A DNA stretch of 42,592 bases from a virus. The translations under genes and the position numbers were made by a program. Below the pieces are notes generated by a model, which was not told where the DNA came from, did no database searches, and worked only from the letters and a program-made list of their open reading frames with translations. Shown here one piece after another: positions 4,203 to 42,592 of the stretch. Every line of letters begins with the position of its first letter. The stretch's first letter is position 1. The stretch spans positions 1 through 42,592 of IMG/VR virus record IMGVR_UViG_3300025087_000149; one strand, written 5' to 3'.

Positions 4203-4844
4203 ATGTGTGAATTCATAAGCTGGATCGAAAAAAACGGGAATGTGTACTACCTCACATATCACGATATATATCGGACTAGGCGTGGAAAAGAATTAAGGGA
4301 TTATTGCAAAAGCAAAGAAGATTTAATTGGACATAATGCAATAAGATTTTACTATGCCGAATTCATGGGCGGAGAAGATAAAGAGTGTACCGATTTCTCT
4401 TCTCCAAATAATTTCCCGAAAGAAATCGTAGCGGATATTAAAGCGGGTAAATTTAGGGGGCTGGGAACTGAGAAAGGACTGCTTCAGCAGCAAGCATGGG
4501 CTGAATACTCGAAGATTGAGCAGCAAGCATTGGCTGAATACTTGAAGATTGAGCAACCAGCATGGGCTGAATACTCGAAGATTAGGCAACCAGCATGGGC
4601 TGAATACTTGAAGATTGAGCAACCAGCATGGGCTGAATACTCGAAGATTGAGCAACCAGCATTGGCTGAATACTTGAAGATTGAGCAACCAGCATTGGCT
4701 GAATACTTGAAGATTGAGCAGCAAGCATTGGCTGAATACTTGAAGATTGAGCAACCAGCATTGGCTGAATACTTGAAGATTGAGCAGCAAGCATTTTGGG
4801 ATTTATTTAGGATTGTAAAAAATAGAAATCCTCTATGGAGGTAA
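4203..4844 (+). CDS. Phage protein with 11-residue tandem repeats (AWAEY(S/L)KIEQP)
   Basis: 213 residues. The N-terminal domain of about 95 residues (MCEFISWIEKNGNVYYL, GHNAIRFYY, CTDFSSPNNFPKEIV, IKAGKF) resembles an uncharacterised phage family. Nine perfect-length 11-residue repeats follow, A(W/L)AEY(S/L)KI(E/R)Q(P/Q), then a degenerate tenth (AFWDLFRI) and a basic tail. The repeats should form an amphipathic helix or coiled coil. The gene has a strong promoter and an AAGGAG ribosome site, so it is the first and probably an abundant early product. Function is unknown. Repeat number could vary by slippage. Confidence 0.85.
   Translation: MCEFISWIEKNGNVYYLTYHDIYRTRRGKELRDYCKSKEDLIGHNAIRFYYAEFMGGEDKECTDFSSPNNFPKEIVADIKAGKFRGLGTEKGLLQQQAWAEYSKIEQQALAEYLKIEQPAWAEYSKIRQPAWAEYLKIEQPAWAEYSKIEQPALAEYLKIEQPALAEYLKIEQQALAEYLKIEQPALAEYLKIEQQAFWDLFRIVKNRNPLWR
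4494..4790 (+). repeat. Nine 33-bp tandem repeats
   Basis: Nine in-frame 33-base units run from the GCA at 4494 to 4790. They differ mainly at TGG/TTG (Trp/Leu), TCG/TTG (Ser/Leu) and CAG/CCA (Gln/Pro) positions. Recurrent mixed variants suggest unit shuffling or slippage rather than steady divergence. Confidence 0.95.
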
Positions 4845-5081: not shown

Positions 5082-5187
5082 CATGCGAAAAGCGGAAAAG
5101 GCACTAAGTAGATTGGTAAATACAGATTCTGAAAGAGGTAGCAATGTTGTGGACGGGTAAACTATGAGTAAGAAGGAGAAATAATAA

Positions 5188-21743: not shown

Positions 21744-22091
21744 TTACACCCTCCCCCTATTTATGGGTGGCCTTACTGGCTGTGGTGTAAACATTCTCGG
21801 TGGCGGTCTAAATTCTGGTGGTATTGGCGGCAAACCAGGAGGCATTGGAGGCAATCCAGGCGGTAAATTAACATTCCCACCCCCGCCTGCACCGCTATTG
21901 CCTAACAGACTGGTTATTGCTTGTGGATTCTGTTGAATAATTGACATTATATCAGGCATTGGTTTTCGCATTGTTGCCCTTGGATTGTTAGCCATATTCG
22001 CTAATCCTGGCCGTCTACCCATAAAACCTCTCATCATTCTTGGATTGATTCCACTATTACCCAACAAGGATGTTATTGTTTGTTCATCCAT
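21744..22091 (-). CDS. Pro/Gly-rich structural protein (115 aa)
   Basis: ITSLLGNSG occurs twice (about residues 5-13 and 59-67). The C-terminal third is a Pro-rich tract (PPGLPPMPPGLPPIPPEF). It is probably disordered, and its position points to a minor virion component. Confidence 0.55.
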   Translation of the reverse strand: MDEQTITSLLGNSGINPRMMRGFMGRRPGLANMANNPRATMRKPMPDIMSIIQQNPQAITSLLGNSGAGGGGNVNLPPGLPPMPPGLPPIPPEFRPPPRMFTPQPVRPPINRGRV

Positions 22092-22366
22092 CAGTATCTC
22101 CTTCGATTCATCATGTAAGGATTATTGTATAAAGAATTACCCAAAATACTTCCATTGGTCTGTGGTTGTGTCCCTTGCGGTTGTTTTGGGTAAATATCAT
22201 TTGCTGTTGGCATTGGCCTTTGTGACATTAATGTTTGTCCAAGGTTAGGAGATTGAGCCCCCGGTATTTGCATGGGAGAGGATTTGAAAGCATTCATTCC
22301 CATTTGCGCACCTTGCAAACCAAGCGATGTGCCTCCTAAAATCATTGCTAACGTCAGTGGCTCTAT
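22091..22366 (-). CDS. Small virion-associated protein, probable AUA start
   Basis: From ATA 22366 the protein is 91 residues, MEPLTLAMILGGTSLGLQ if AUA is read as Met. Phage proteins of this type usually start with an xEPLTLA-like hydrophobic helix. GAGGG lies about ten bases upstream of the ATA. The first ATG (22345) has no ribosome site and would remove half of that helix. The rest is Gln/Pro/Asn-rich. It belongs to the internal-protein cluster. Confidence 0.55.
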   Translation of the reverse strand: MEPLTLAMILGGTSLGLQGAQMGMNAFKSSPMQIPGAQSPNLGQTLMSQRPMPTANDIYPKQPQGTQPQTNGSILGNSLYNNPYMMNRRRY

Positions 22367-22370
22367 AATT

Positions 22371-22583
22371 TTACACCCTCATTTCTTGTAATACAGTACA
22401 ACATTGTTTATTTAATTTATAATATGCTTCCTGTGTTATTCTGGTATTTCTCTTATGATATTGTTTTTCCACATTACAAATCTCAGGTCTATTGTCATAT
22501 ACAGTACATTCGTTTTTATCATTCAATAAACTACATCCCACAACCTTGCAACATGACTCACATTTTCCACAATTAAACTTTAT
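22371..22583 (-). CDS. YkgJ-like Cys-cluster protein, probable AUA start
   Basis: The frame reads (I)KFNCGKCESCCKVVGC, then ECTVYDNRPEIC, the CxxCxxCC...C...YxxRPxxC pattern of YkgJ/UPF0153-like metal- or Fe-S-cluster proteins. It contains no ATG upstream of the Cys cluster. Two ATA codons (22586 and 22583) follow GGAGG (3 and 6 bases), the first overlapping the preceding stop as ATAA. GTG inside the cluster would delete essential Cys residues. So a 70-aa product from AUA is the best reading. Confidence 0.65.
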   Translation of the reverse strand: MKFNCGKCESCCKVVGCSLLNDKNECTVYDNRPEICNVEKQYHKRNTRITQEAYYKLNKQCCTVLQEMRV

Positions 22584-24061
22584 TATTTACCTCCTGTTTG
22601 TTGTGCTGATTGTGTTACGGTTCCACCGAAATTACCACCTACTAATTGACTCAGGAGAGATGCTTCATTCCACGGTGCTAATTCACCTTGTTCAAATTTC
22701 TGAATATAGGCATTTAGCACGTCCTGGTTCATCTGTTGTTGCTCTGCTCCTGATGCCGATAATGCAGCAATGTCGCTATATCCTGCCTGATTAAGTTCAG
22801 GAGCGAATCCTAAAGATTGTAGAATATTATCAATGTTTTGTGTATCTGTTTGGGTTTTCAGTACAGCATTTTGTTTATTTATATCGCTTGTGATTCCAGC
22901 TTGCTCAAAATATCGTTGTAAATCATTCATTACATTTTGAACATTTGCCTCTTGCCCATACCCTGCTTCAGTTGTAGCTTTTTCTAATCCTAATTGAGTA
23001 TTGAGTCGGTTCGCCTCTTGTCCATATCCGGCATTTGCAAGAGCCTTTTCAAGTCCAAATTGAATATTTAATCTATTTGCTTCTTGTTCGTAATCAGATT
23101 CCTTGCCTGATAATTCACCGCCAAGCCCCAAAGCCTGCATTTGTGCATTTAATTGATTATCAAAGGCAGTGCCTCTTATATTTGCCTCTACATCTCCAAT
23201 GGATTCCAGATAATCCTTGTTTGCATTAGTTCTTAAATCTTCCCAAGCACCACTACCCCTTGCCCCTGCATCTTCGGCTGCTGAATTTATATTTGGTATG
23301 ACATTGCTTAGGTAATTCCGATTAATCCCCCTTGTTGCGGCTGTTATCATATCATCAAGATATTCATTACCACCATCCCCACCAGCCAAAACACCAAGCG
23401 GATTCCAGAAGTCATATCCAAGACTTGCCGCCTGCATTTGAGGGCTATAATTAACTGTAGCCCCCGACATATTTGGTGTATAATTAATACTTCTGCCTGT
23501 TATATCCCCGGGGTCATTTATTGTTGGCGTGTCTATGTTCCAGTATGGAATTTCATTTGCTCCGGTTATAACATTGCCTAGCGCTGTTTCTGATTTACCA
23601 AGTAATGATGATTGCATGGGCTTGCCAAAACTGTCCAAACGGCTATCTGCAAGTCCTTGCGTATATTCTTGTGCCTGTAATTGTGGTTCAGTGAACTTCG
23701 CAACACTAGGAGCGCCAATATCTTCTCCACCTTGATTTGCTGCATTAGTTAAATTAAGAATAGGATATAGTGCATCTTGCCACCAGCCTTTACTATTATT
23801 CCCTTGTGTACCCCAATAATCTAACCCACCTGGTTTTTTATAATTCGTATCAAAAAAGTCAGAATAAATAGTATCTTCGTTAGGACTCATGTATTTATTG
23901 CTTTTTGTGCCTGATGTGGCATTTGGATCATACTCAGGATTAATCACCCTACCTGTTGCTCCGTAAAGAGCGGATTGAAATATTGGTTTCAAATATTTTG
24001 ACTGCACATCCCATGGTTCAGAAGATGTTATTGAATTATATCCACCACCACTGCTAGCCAT
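22583..24061 (-). CDS. Internal/tail-associated virion protein (492 aa)
   Basis: Start ATG 24061 (MASSGGGYNSITSS), with GGAG ten bases upstream. An N-terminal Gly/Tyr/Asn-rich half is followed by a helical region with three 22-residue repeats of the form Y(E/G)QEAN(R/V)LN...LE(K)A...AG at about residues 325-392. Size, repeats and position fit a podovirus internal or tail-associated protein. No enzyme domain seen. Confidence 0.6.
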   Translation of the reverse strand: MASSGGGYNSITSSEPWDVQSKYLKPIFQSALYGATGRVINPEYDPNATSGTKSNKYMSPNEDTIYSDFFDTNYKKPGGLDYWGTQGNNSKGWWQDALYPILNLTNAANQGGEDIGAPSVAKFTEPQLQAQEYTQGLADSRLDSFGKPMQSSLLGKSETALGNVITGANEIPYWNIDTPTINDPGDITGRSINYTPNMSGATVNYSPQMQAASLGYDFWNPLGVLAGGDGGNEYLDDMITAATRGINRNYLSNVIPNINSAAEDAGARGSGAWEDLRTNANKDYLESIGDVEANIRGTAFDNQLNAQMQALGLGGELSGKESDYEQEANRLNIQFGLEKALANAGYGQEANRLNTQLGLEKATTEAGYGQEANVQNVMNDLQRYFEQAGITSDINKQNAVLKTQTDTQNIDNILQSLGFAPELNQAGYSDIAALSASGAEQQQMNQDVLNAYIQKFEQGELAPWNEASLLSQLVGGNFGGTVTQSAQQTGGK

Positions 24062-24605
24062 TTTTAATATTCTCCAAATCAAGAACATATTCTATATAGG
24101 ATTGTTTAAATCCCATAGGAACTAGCCGCCTTTCCCATCCTTTACGCAATGTCCAAAATCTCATTTTTTGGCATCCTTGTTCTTTTGCAAACTTCTTTAT
24201 ATCGTCTAAACCTTGTAAGAAGGTTTCTTTATTTATGCCAGGTTTAATGAACAAATGCACCATGCTGAGGAAATTCGTAGCATCAACATTGATGTCTTTC
24301 CTAACAGTAATAAATCCACAATATTTACCATCTAAGAATCCCATCCATAGCAATAAATCACCACTCAATAAGTCATTGAGTATCTTTGCTAAACTCATAT
24401 CCCCATTTGTAAACTCATGGACAATTTCAATTCCTTTAGTAATAGTTTGCCAACAGTTCAATATCTTTTCAGATTCAACTTGATATAAATAAGCATTGTG
24501 CTTTGTACTGGCTAATCTCTGTCCATTAATAGGCTTAAACAATGGGATTAACTTGAATTCACCCTCTTGTGGTTTAACCAAGTTTTCGCCAAGCACTTCC
24601 GTCAT
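24054..24605 (-). CDS. GNAT-like protein of the virion cluster
   Basis: 183 residues. A GNAT-like core is seen: LLLWMGFLDGKYCGFITVRKD, then LSMVHLFIKPGINKETF and KKFAKEQGCQKMRFWT. The last matches the helix and strand after the acetyl-CoA loop, but the canonical Q/RxxGxG/A loop is weak. GNAT-fold proteins are often found among tail genes of podoviruses; an enzymatic role is uncertain. Confidence 0.65.
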   Translation of the reverse strand: MTEVLGENLVKPQEGEFKLIPLFKPINGQRLASTKHNAYLYQVESEKILNCWQTITKGIEIVHEFTNGDMSLAKILNDLLSGDLLLWMGFLDGKYCGFITVRKDINVDATNFLSMVHLFIKPGINKETFLQGLDDIKKFAKEQGCQKMRFWTLRKGWERRLVPMGFKQSYIEYVLDLENIKNG

Positions 24606-27228: not shown

Positions 27229-27581
27229 TTTCTCTTTGGTCTACCAGGTTTACGTTTTAATACCCCAACAGGGCTTTTTTCCCCTTGTTCATGTGTTTGA
27301 ACATCTCCACATCCGCCAACCGCTTCTTTGCTTGCCCCTCCGATAGATTCGACTTGCTGAGATTTTTCCCTTTTTCCGATTTCACTTGATACCCCTGTTT
27401 CGTCTTTTTTATCATTTACAAATCCTTTCATCCCAATTTCCAATGCTATCTTGTCTGCAATTTTAGCAAAAGCATCTCTGTCTGATTTTACCTCTTTACT
27501 TTTTAGGTATTCAATTTCTTCCTCTCGGCTATTAACTACCTTCTCGGCATCAATCCTTTTTGGATACTCAAAAAATTCCAT
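27225..27581 (-). CDS. Hypothetical protein with AT-hook-like tail
   Basis: 118 residues, highly charged; it starts MEFFEYPKRIDAEKVVNSRE and ends KRKPGRPKRK. PGRPKRK is an AT-hook-like DNA minor-groove motif. The middle is low-complexity. It could bind packaged DNA at the connector, but the motif is short. Confidence 0.6.
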   Translation of the reverse strand: MEFFEYPKRIDAEKVVNSREEEIEYLKSKEVKSDRDAFAKIADKIALEIGMKGFVNDKKDETGVSSEIGKREKSQQVESIGGASKEAVGGCGDVQTHEQGEKSPVGVLKRKPGRPKRK

Positions 27582-31379: not shown

Positions 31380-31700
31380 CTATTGTTTTACAAAATATAA
31401 ATTATTAGGGCGAAAGACTATATCCTTATTACAACAATAACACTGTCCCTGGTGATTGATATCAACTATTTTATGGAAATACGCATGTTCGCAATTTGGG
31501 CATTCCTTTGGCTTTTCATGTGGAACATAAGGTATCCAATCATTTCGTTTTAAATCAATATTACACACTCGTGCATAAGCATTATTATTTTTATCCATAA
31601 AATAAAATCTATCACTTTCTAATTCAGCACGAAGTTTTGTTTTTATCTCTGGCAAAGTCGCCTTGCCATCTCCAGCCTCTAGGGCTTCGAATATGTTCAT
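31380..31700 (-). CDS. MNIFEALEA-family protein 1, possibly Tad2-like, with zinc ribbon
   Basis: 106 residues. The N-terminal half (MNIFEALEAGDGKATLPEIK, then NIDLKRNDWIPYVPHEKP) is shared with the genes at 31732 and 38368. DUF2829/Tad2-like phage proteins have a comparable layout: an MNFxEALE start and an (A/N)DW(E/I)P end. That likeness is inferred by eye. A C-terminal zinc ribbon follows (CPNC and CYCC). AGGAGA precedes the ATG. Confidence 0.6.
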   Translation of the reverse strand: MNIFEALEAGDGKATLPEIKTKLRAELESDRFYFMDKNNNAYARVCNIDLKRNDWIPYVPHEKPKECPNCEHAYFHKIVDINHQGQCYCCNKDIVFRPNNLYFVKQ

Positions 31701-31731: not shown

Positions 31732-32058
31732 TTACAATTCCCATTCTACTGTAATTTTCATTAAAGGCTTACGGCTCTCTATATCAACGGAATTTATTCT
31801 AGCAAATACATAATCTAAAAGCGTTTCCCTAGTCCAATTTATATTCTCAAATACTTCTTTATGTTTAATTGTTTCACGTGGAACAACAGGTATCCAATCA
31901 TTGCGCTTTAAATCTATATACAATACTTCCCTAAAATAATCATATATCTCTGTATGTCTCCAAACAAAAACACCCTTTTCTTGTTTAACATAAAATCCTA
32001 TATCGCCTTTCAGTGTCGCCTTGCCAGAGCCAGCCTCTAGGGCTTCATATATGTTCAT
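31732..32058 (-). CDS. MNIFEALEA-family protein 2
   Basis: 108 residues: MNIYEALEAGSGKATLKGDI, then VLYIDLKRNDWIPVVPRETI. The C-terminal part (KEVFENINWTRETLLDYVFA, ending MKITVEWEL) is shared with the 38368 protein (REVFENVISIKLG, MKLTLEWEE) but not with copy 1. A parS-like site lies in the codons after RNDWIPVV. Function unknown; Tad2-like is a hypothesis. Confidence 0.6.
   Translation of the reverse strand: MNIYEALEAGSGKATLKGDIGFYVKQEKGVFVWRHTEIYDYFREVLYIDLKRNDWIPVVPRETIKHKEVFENINWTRETLLDYVFARINSVDIESRKPLMKITVEWEL
31870..31885. promoter_or_regulatory. parS: parS-like site 1
   Basis: TGTTTCACGTGGAACA equals the reverse complement of the degenerate chromosomal parS consensus TGTTNCACGTGAAACA at all 16 positions. 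It overlaps codons of the gene at 31732-32058 (VPRET), so coding constraint could have produced it. A second copy at 40119 shares 15 bases. Confidence 0.5.
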
Positions 32059-38367: not shown

Positions 38368-38850
38368 TCATTCTTCCCACTCTAAAGTTAATTTCATTTG
38401 TTTATTAAATAACTTTTCTATGTTGCCAGTCTTTACAAAGCCCAACTTGATTGAAATTACATTCTCAAATACTTCCCTACACTTCTTTGTTCCAGGTGGA
38501 ACATTTCCGGGTGGTGGTAGAAAGTCTTTAACATAGGCTTCGCTAAAACCTATATTTATAAATTCAAAATATCTTTTGAACCAAGTTTCCCATAAACTAA
38601 AATTTGATTCTGTTATACCAAATGGTTTTGCCCAATCTTTCTTGACTTCAATATAGGGTATCCAATCGTTACGTTTTAAAAAATAATTTCCTACCTGGCT
38701 ATACGTGGGAATTGTTCCTGTATAATCTGTATTCTTTTTCCATTCAAAAAACTGATTTTTAGCATTTATAAAAACAAAACATTTACCTTGCCATTCTGGT
38801 AGTGTAACCAAACCATCTGTGGCAGCTTCGAGAGCCTCAAATATGTTCAT
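38368..38850 (-). CDS. MNIFEALEA-family protein 3 (160 aa)
   Basis: The longest of three paralogues: MNIFEALEAATDGLVTLPEW, then FLKRNDWIPYIEVKKDW near residue 60. The extra middle (ESNFSLWETWFKRYFEFINI) is unique, and the C-terminus (REVFENVIS...MKLTLEWEE) is shared with copy 2. The common N-terminal module suggests one fold with varied binding parts. A Tad2-like anti-defence role is a hypothesis only. Confidence 0.6.
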   Translation of the reverse strand: MNIFEALEAATDGLVTLPEWQGKCFVFINAKNQFFEWKKNTDYTGTIPTYSQVGNYFLKRNDWIPYIEVKKDWAKPFGITESNFSLWETWFKRYFEFINIGFSEAYVKDFLPPPGNVPPGTKKCREVFENVISIKLGFVKTGNIEKLFNKQMKLTLEWEE

Positions 38851-42418: not shown

Positions 42419-42592
42419 ATGGATATTAAAAAAATAATTGCCGGAGAAATTAAAAACCTTTCCGGGGCTGACCTTTCCGGGGCTGACCTTTCCAGGGCTA
42501 ACCTTTCCAGGGCTAACCTTTTCGAGGCTAACCTTTCCAGGGCTAACCTTTTCGAGGCTAACCTTTCCGGGGCTAACCTTTCCAGGGCTAAC
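42419..42592 (+). CDS. Pentapeptide-repeat protein, 5' part (runs off the window end)
   Basis: ATG 42419 follows AAAGGAGG. It reads [20 protein letters not shown] and then A(N/D)LSx pentapeptides to the last base, in phase with the 3' part at 3-413. The start, leader and palindromes show this is the authentic beginning. See the entry at 3-413 for the whole protein. Confidence 0.9.

Follow-up and report, generated by a model that had tools for sequence, protein, structure and literature searches.

Candidate AUA start codons at stop-codon overlaps of YkgJ-like cysteine-cluster genes in phages

Introduction

Initiation at AUA is generally regarded as a peculiarity of a handful of host genes. In Staphylococcus aureus, natural AUA starts are carried by infC, ccpN and citZ, and an AUU start by cvfC1, whose small protein product may contain a zinc finger; when ccpN, citZ and cvfC1, all with extended Shine-Dalgarno (SD) sequences, were assayed as reporters, output reached about 10–30% of that obtained with AUG (PMC13009471). 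The second system that bears on the present case is that of overlapping gene pairs, either with a 4-nt overlap (NTGA, -4 nt) or a 1-nt overlap (TAATG/TGATG, -1 nt), for which re-initiation is described in bacteria and archaea (PMC6728339, PMC12548453).

The locus considered here lies on the minus strand of a virus record from IMG/VR that is 42,592 bases long (IMGVR_UViG_3300025087_000149; this whole stretch is referred to below as the window), within a head/portal/stabilization module (PHROG head protein, portal, terminase). The original prediction, that a conserved cysteine-cluster gene appears here to start at AUA, is followed up below by comparison with phage homologues.

Results

A cysteine-cluster frame and its first NTG codon

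An intact small YkgJ/CxxCxxCC frame occupies 22586-22371 on the minus strand. It comprises 71 codons when counted from 22586, or 70 codons from the predicted start at ATA 22583 (22371..22583, minus), ends at TAA 22373-22371, and is blocked on its 5' side by a TAA directly before 22586. The frame translates as IIKFNCGKCESCCKVVGCSLLNDKNECTVYDNRPEICNVEKQYHKRNTRITQEAYYKLNKQCCTVLQEMRV followed by the stop (abbreviated, IIKFNCGKCESCCKVVGC...MRV and stop). Both the C-x2-C-x2-CC core and the C-x2-Y-x2-RP-x2-C segment are present, and C6, C9, C12, C13, C18, C27, Y30, R33, P34 and C37 are all residues that are invariant across 44 aligned phage homologues. While every one of these 44 members matches PF03692 at E<=0.01, the window protein alone scores 22.2 bits against a cut-off of 23 (E 2e-4). 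An AlphaFold2 model of the 71-residue frame, based on the 44-row alignment, has a mean pLDDT of 91.5, with helices at residues 11-15, 39-45 and 52-68 and a well predicted N-terminal Cys part; sequence and fold searches for a solved relative of the protein found none. The frame, its coordinates (22371-22586) and the early CGKCESCC motif were as originally predicted, with conservation holding at the level of the family (PF03692 in 44/44).

The first in-frame NTG, GTG 22541, is located past C6, C9, C12 and C13, and this is the start that an NTG-only ORF list reports, yielding a truncated protein of 56 aa. We consider its use highly improbable. Such a protein would drop four cysteines that are invariant in the 44 homologues, the SD of GTG 22541 is an AAGG just 2 nt away (-2.2 kcal/mol), and the residues ahead of the GTG are confidently folded in the AlphaFold2 model. 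The claim that no internal NTG can serve as the start thus holds, given the position of this first NTG behind the four invariant cysteines.

The predicted start codon and its ribosome site

The start region of the window reads CAGGAGGTAAATAATAAAGTTTAATTGT, and the junction behind the last codons of the upstream gene reads AGGAGGTAAATAATAAAGTTT. The 7-nt Shine-Dalgarno sequence AGGAGGT (22589..22595, minus) lies within the last codons of the upstream gene, 2 nt from a first ATA (22584..22586, minus) and 5 nt from a second (22581..22583, minus). The TAA of the upstream gene (22585-22583) shares two bases with the first ATA and one with the second, the latter overlap (TAATA) having the -1 nt geometry of TAATG. 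For a start at 22583, the duplex with the anti-SD amounts to -11.7 kcal/mol, which is among the two strongest of the ~38 window genes scored.

In the homologues, the initiator Met is commonly found four codons before the first Cys (M-K/E-F-x-C), which is the position of ATA 22583. Common start readings are AAATAATGGAATTTTTATGT or AAATAATGAAATTTTTATGC (L207, L247, L256, L267 and others), and the ATG of homologues such as L032 and L207 aligns with the second ATA. When the start of L032 (ATGAAGTTTAATTGT) is set against that of the window (ATAAAGTTTAATTGT), the first 15 bases differ at a single position (TAATGAAGTTTAATTGT versus TAATAAAGTTTAATTGT). Judging from these sequences, the second ATA is probably the better start, as ATA 22586 is too close to the SD and one codon upstream of the homologous Met. 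An AUA start was thus supported by the homologous Met position, the strong SD and the lack of a usable NTG, and the homologue alignment that had been suggested as a check commonly placed the start where the window has ATA 22583. It had also been stated that only ATA 22586 and ATA 22583 have a proper ribosome site and that the first overlaps the upstream stop; the site is confirmed for 22583, whereas 22586 lies too close to the SD and both codons, rather than one, overlap the stop.

A second assembly with the same ATA

As one base change would restore the usual TAATG, the ATA might be an ATG misread in sequencing or assembly. In IMG/VR, a second assembly, 3300009285_000172 (L006), has the same ATA within a 6,213-base stretch that includes the gene and matches the window at 100% identity; in the terminase-to-head region the two records share 72-82% identity, and from about 27314 downward 99.97-100%. 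With two assemblies in agreement, of which one is a separate contig, recombinant or mosaic, and with ATA at the same place in four other contigs, an error is largely refuted and is given next to no weight. The abrupt switch in L006 near window position 27314, from 72-82% to 99.97% identity, points to a recombinant phage or a chimeric assembly.

In protein and DNA-pattern scans for close relatives of the gene, the identical contig was the sole match, the relatives L005 and L007 end before reaching the gene, and phage records searched for a homologue of it gave one poor match. Since the one other copy is identical and none has diverged, constraint on the window gene is deduced from its intact, family-consistent sequence.

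Recurrence of ATA starts in the family

Homologues were collected from IMG/VR by a profile scan, with the window protein and plasmid homologues as queries, by two DNA-pattern scans in which ATA was sought at codon -4 or -5, and by a scan with the L108/L114 pair. The profile scan is blind to ATA and was the source of L018 (the window contig), L042 and L059, while L108 and L114 were retrieved by a scan requesting ATA; this should be considered when referring to the counts below. All scans together yielded 140 phage genes, or 85 representatives once near copies were removed. On the plasmids, YkgJ-like genes tend to adjoin a larger gene, just behind it, and an ATG-start YkgJ-like gene of Acinetobacter johnsonii pMRA (L010:1989-2255) is absent from the plasmid gene table.

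An NTG was found within 30 codons of the first Cys in 80/85 representatives. In the five without one (the window contig, L042, L059, L108 and L114), the codon at the start position, 4 or 5 codons before the first Cys, is in every case ATA, and never ATT, ATC, ACG or CTG. In each of the five, the ATA overlaps the upstream stop, as TAATA (window, L114), ATAA (L042, L108) or ATAG (L059). L042 has AGGAGG 5 nt upstream of its ATA, and TTG is the start in its relatives L084 and L097. In the group of L108 and L114, where we read the preceding gene as scaffold-like, other members mostly start at GTG, and one relative has GTG at the same position. L108 has a weak SD only, and in L059 a CTG ten codons before the Cys is a possible alternative start. 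The ATA label requires five changes on the 85-row tree, in which many forks are unresolved, and at least four of the changes are forced by well-supported branches. ATA starts are thereby predicted in at least three phage lineages of the YkgJ-like family besides that of the window. A mechanical NTG ORF list for L042, L059 and L114 gave only truncated or wrong-frame ORFs, in agreement with the expectation that AUA-start genes are missed by gene finders.

In the profile-scan subset (48 representatives), 23 starts overlap the upstream stop, of which 3 are ATA, while in the fetched phage DNA no convincing ATA, as judged by eye, was seen beside 441 NTG overlap starts, a comparison set that includes YkgJ genes. 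Fisher's test gives p of about 1e-4, or 4e-4 with one ATA allowed, and these values should be taken as rough, the query lineage being one of the three. By a crude test, open ATA frames at stop overlaps were not generally enriched in the fetched phage DNA; with an SD and no nearby NTG as requirements, inspection by eye left only the YkgJ cases as convincing, among loci that had been chosen for YkgJ. Among the matches listed (118 stretches) from a DNA-pattern scan of genome_contigs, none was a YkgJ gene with an ATA start.

Relative to the upstream gene, the Cys frame is shifted by -1 in each of the five ATA cases, as would be expected if a programmed -1 frameshift near the end of that gene fused the Cys domain to the upstream protein. 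Any TAATG or ATGA overlap, however, yields the same frame relation, and the homologues start separately with ATG, GTG or TTG. Furthermore, the -1 frame of the window is closed by a TAA right before the ATA, which leaves only GGT-AAA-TAA and no X XXY YYZ slippery heptamer, and inspection by eye of the gene ends upstream of L042 and L114 revealed no such heptamer. We thus hold a frameshift to be very unlikely. Of the observations that the original prediction named as arguing against an AUA start, neither was made: the homologues are neither fused to nor frameshifted from the upstream gene, and the second assembly has ATA, not ATG.

Start use or start loss

The main rival explanation is a recent loss of the start by an ATG to ATA change, the window gene being silent or decaying and its intact frame merely young. 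A single base separates the window from the TAATG arrangement of the homologues, and with the second assembly being identical, there would have been no time for decay to become visible. An ATG>ATA change of rpoS in E. coli O104:H4 is reported to have lowered RpoS (PMC12864459). However, ATA is found in every NTG-less homologue, whereas random loss would, by our estimate, give ATA with a chance of ~1/7 to 1/3 each time, and the 7-nt SD is still present in the window. In addition, L108 and L114, which both have ATA and are 67% identical where aligned, show a dN of 0.26 and a dS of 2.5. This is purifying selection between two ATA-start genes, which are therefore kept under strong constraint. We regard start loss as unlikely, even though it is the most serious of the alternatives.

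Neighboring genes and other features of the window

The upstream gene (22583..24088, minus; 501 aa) has a very weak match to a DNA-ejection protein. Its listed ATG 24088 has no SD (24054-24088, minus), and what looks like the true start is ATG 24058 (MASSGGG), behind TTGGAG and overlapping an upstream TAG. In the next gene of the operon (22091..22378, minus), ATG 22345 lacks an SD, while ATT 22369 and ATA 22366 lie behind GAGG, and this gene may begin at one of these two non-AUG codons; a homologue search to place its start found none. As a control, the window was scanned for NTG-less frames with an SD and ATA, ATT, ATC or CTG. Leaving aside frames in which an ATG follows closely, this gave one other ATA candidate, at 5184(+), which was rejected, as ATG 5188 and ATG 5229 account for the frame.

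Both record ends (1-215 and 42455-42592) lie inside one 15-bp repeat array (pentapeptide, A-N/D-L-S-x); the genome is therefore probably circular or permuted, with the record cut open within a gene for pentapeptide repeats. A 33-bp repeat, present in nine copies at 4486-4795(+), encodes tandem units of the EQPAWAEYSKI type in a 213-aa protein. Three minus-strand genes (31380-31700, 31732-32058 and 38368-38850) share the start MNIFEALEA and resemble a small family of paralogues within one phage.

Discussion

With a probability of roughly 78%, we propose that the cysteine-cluster gene of the window is a real gene with an AUA start at 22583, translated by termination-reinitiation with fMet at reduced efficiency, which would give a low output coupled to the preceding gene. 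The anatomy of the junction, the homologous position of the ATA, its recurrence across lineages and the purifying selection in the ATA-start sister pair L108/L114 can be read from the sequences themselves; initiation at 22583, re-initiation as its route and low output as its purpose are what we infer. Ribosomes finishing the 501-aa structural-module gene would halt at the UAA with AGGAGGU under the anti-SD. AUA 22583 already overlaps this stop, and the tethered post-termination ribosome would re-initiate at the AUA with initiator fMet-tRNA, at reduced efficiency and helped by the strong SD. The outcome would be a small dose of a 70-residue cysteine-cluster protein, coupled to the preceding gene, within the late structural operon. 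A change from ATGA to ATAA also switches the upstream stop from TGA to TAA, which is a possible additional driver.

A broader and more doubtful proposal, which we put forward tentatively, is that phage Cys-cluster genes repeatedly and adaptively use an AUA that shares bases with the upstream stop (AUAA, AUAG, UAAUA) as a re-initiation-only start. Free ribosomes would hardly use such a start, and the protein would be kept low and bound strictly to the translation of the preceding gene. If true, repeated independent use of AUA at stop overlaps suggests that coupled re-initiation relaxes the start-codon rule, and gene finders that consider only NTG would lose or shorten a type of phage gene that recurs. 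The YkgJ-like phage genes, with matched AUG, GUG, UUG and AUA homologues, would then offer a compact testable system.

The window protein shares both Cys motif segments with the PF03692 CxxCxxCC (YkgJ cysteine cluster) family, although it is short (70 aa), falls just below the Pfam cut-off when taken alone, and has a putative metal site, for which zinc/iron or Fe-S is a guess at the level of the family. Like the AUA genes of S. aureus, the window gene combines an AUA start with a strong SD, its 7-nt SD at 5 nt being comparable to their extended SDs; unlike infC, ccpN, citZ and cvfC1, it is a phage gene whose start lies on the preceding stop, and nothing suggests an infC-like feedback. With the coupled overlap pairs, the ATA genes share an identical geometry on the same strand, at -1 nt (window, L114) or -4 nt (L042, L059, L108). 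Because the start is ATA, however, their 4-nt overlap is ATAA or ATAG rather than ATGA, while the forms described in the available parts of those sources are NTG only (PMC6728339, PMC12548453). AUA starts are themselves known, and the new aspect, as far as it can be judged from sequence, looks to be that such starts recur at overlaps with stop codons within a single phage family.
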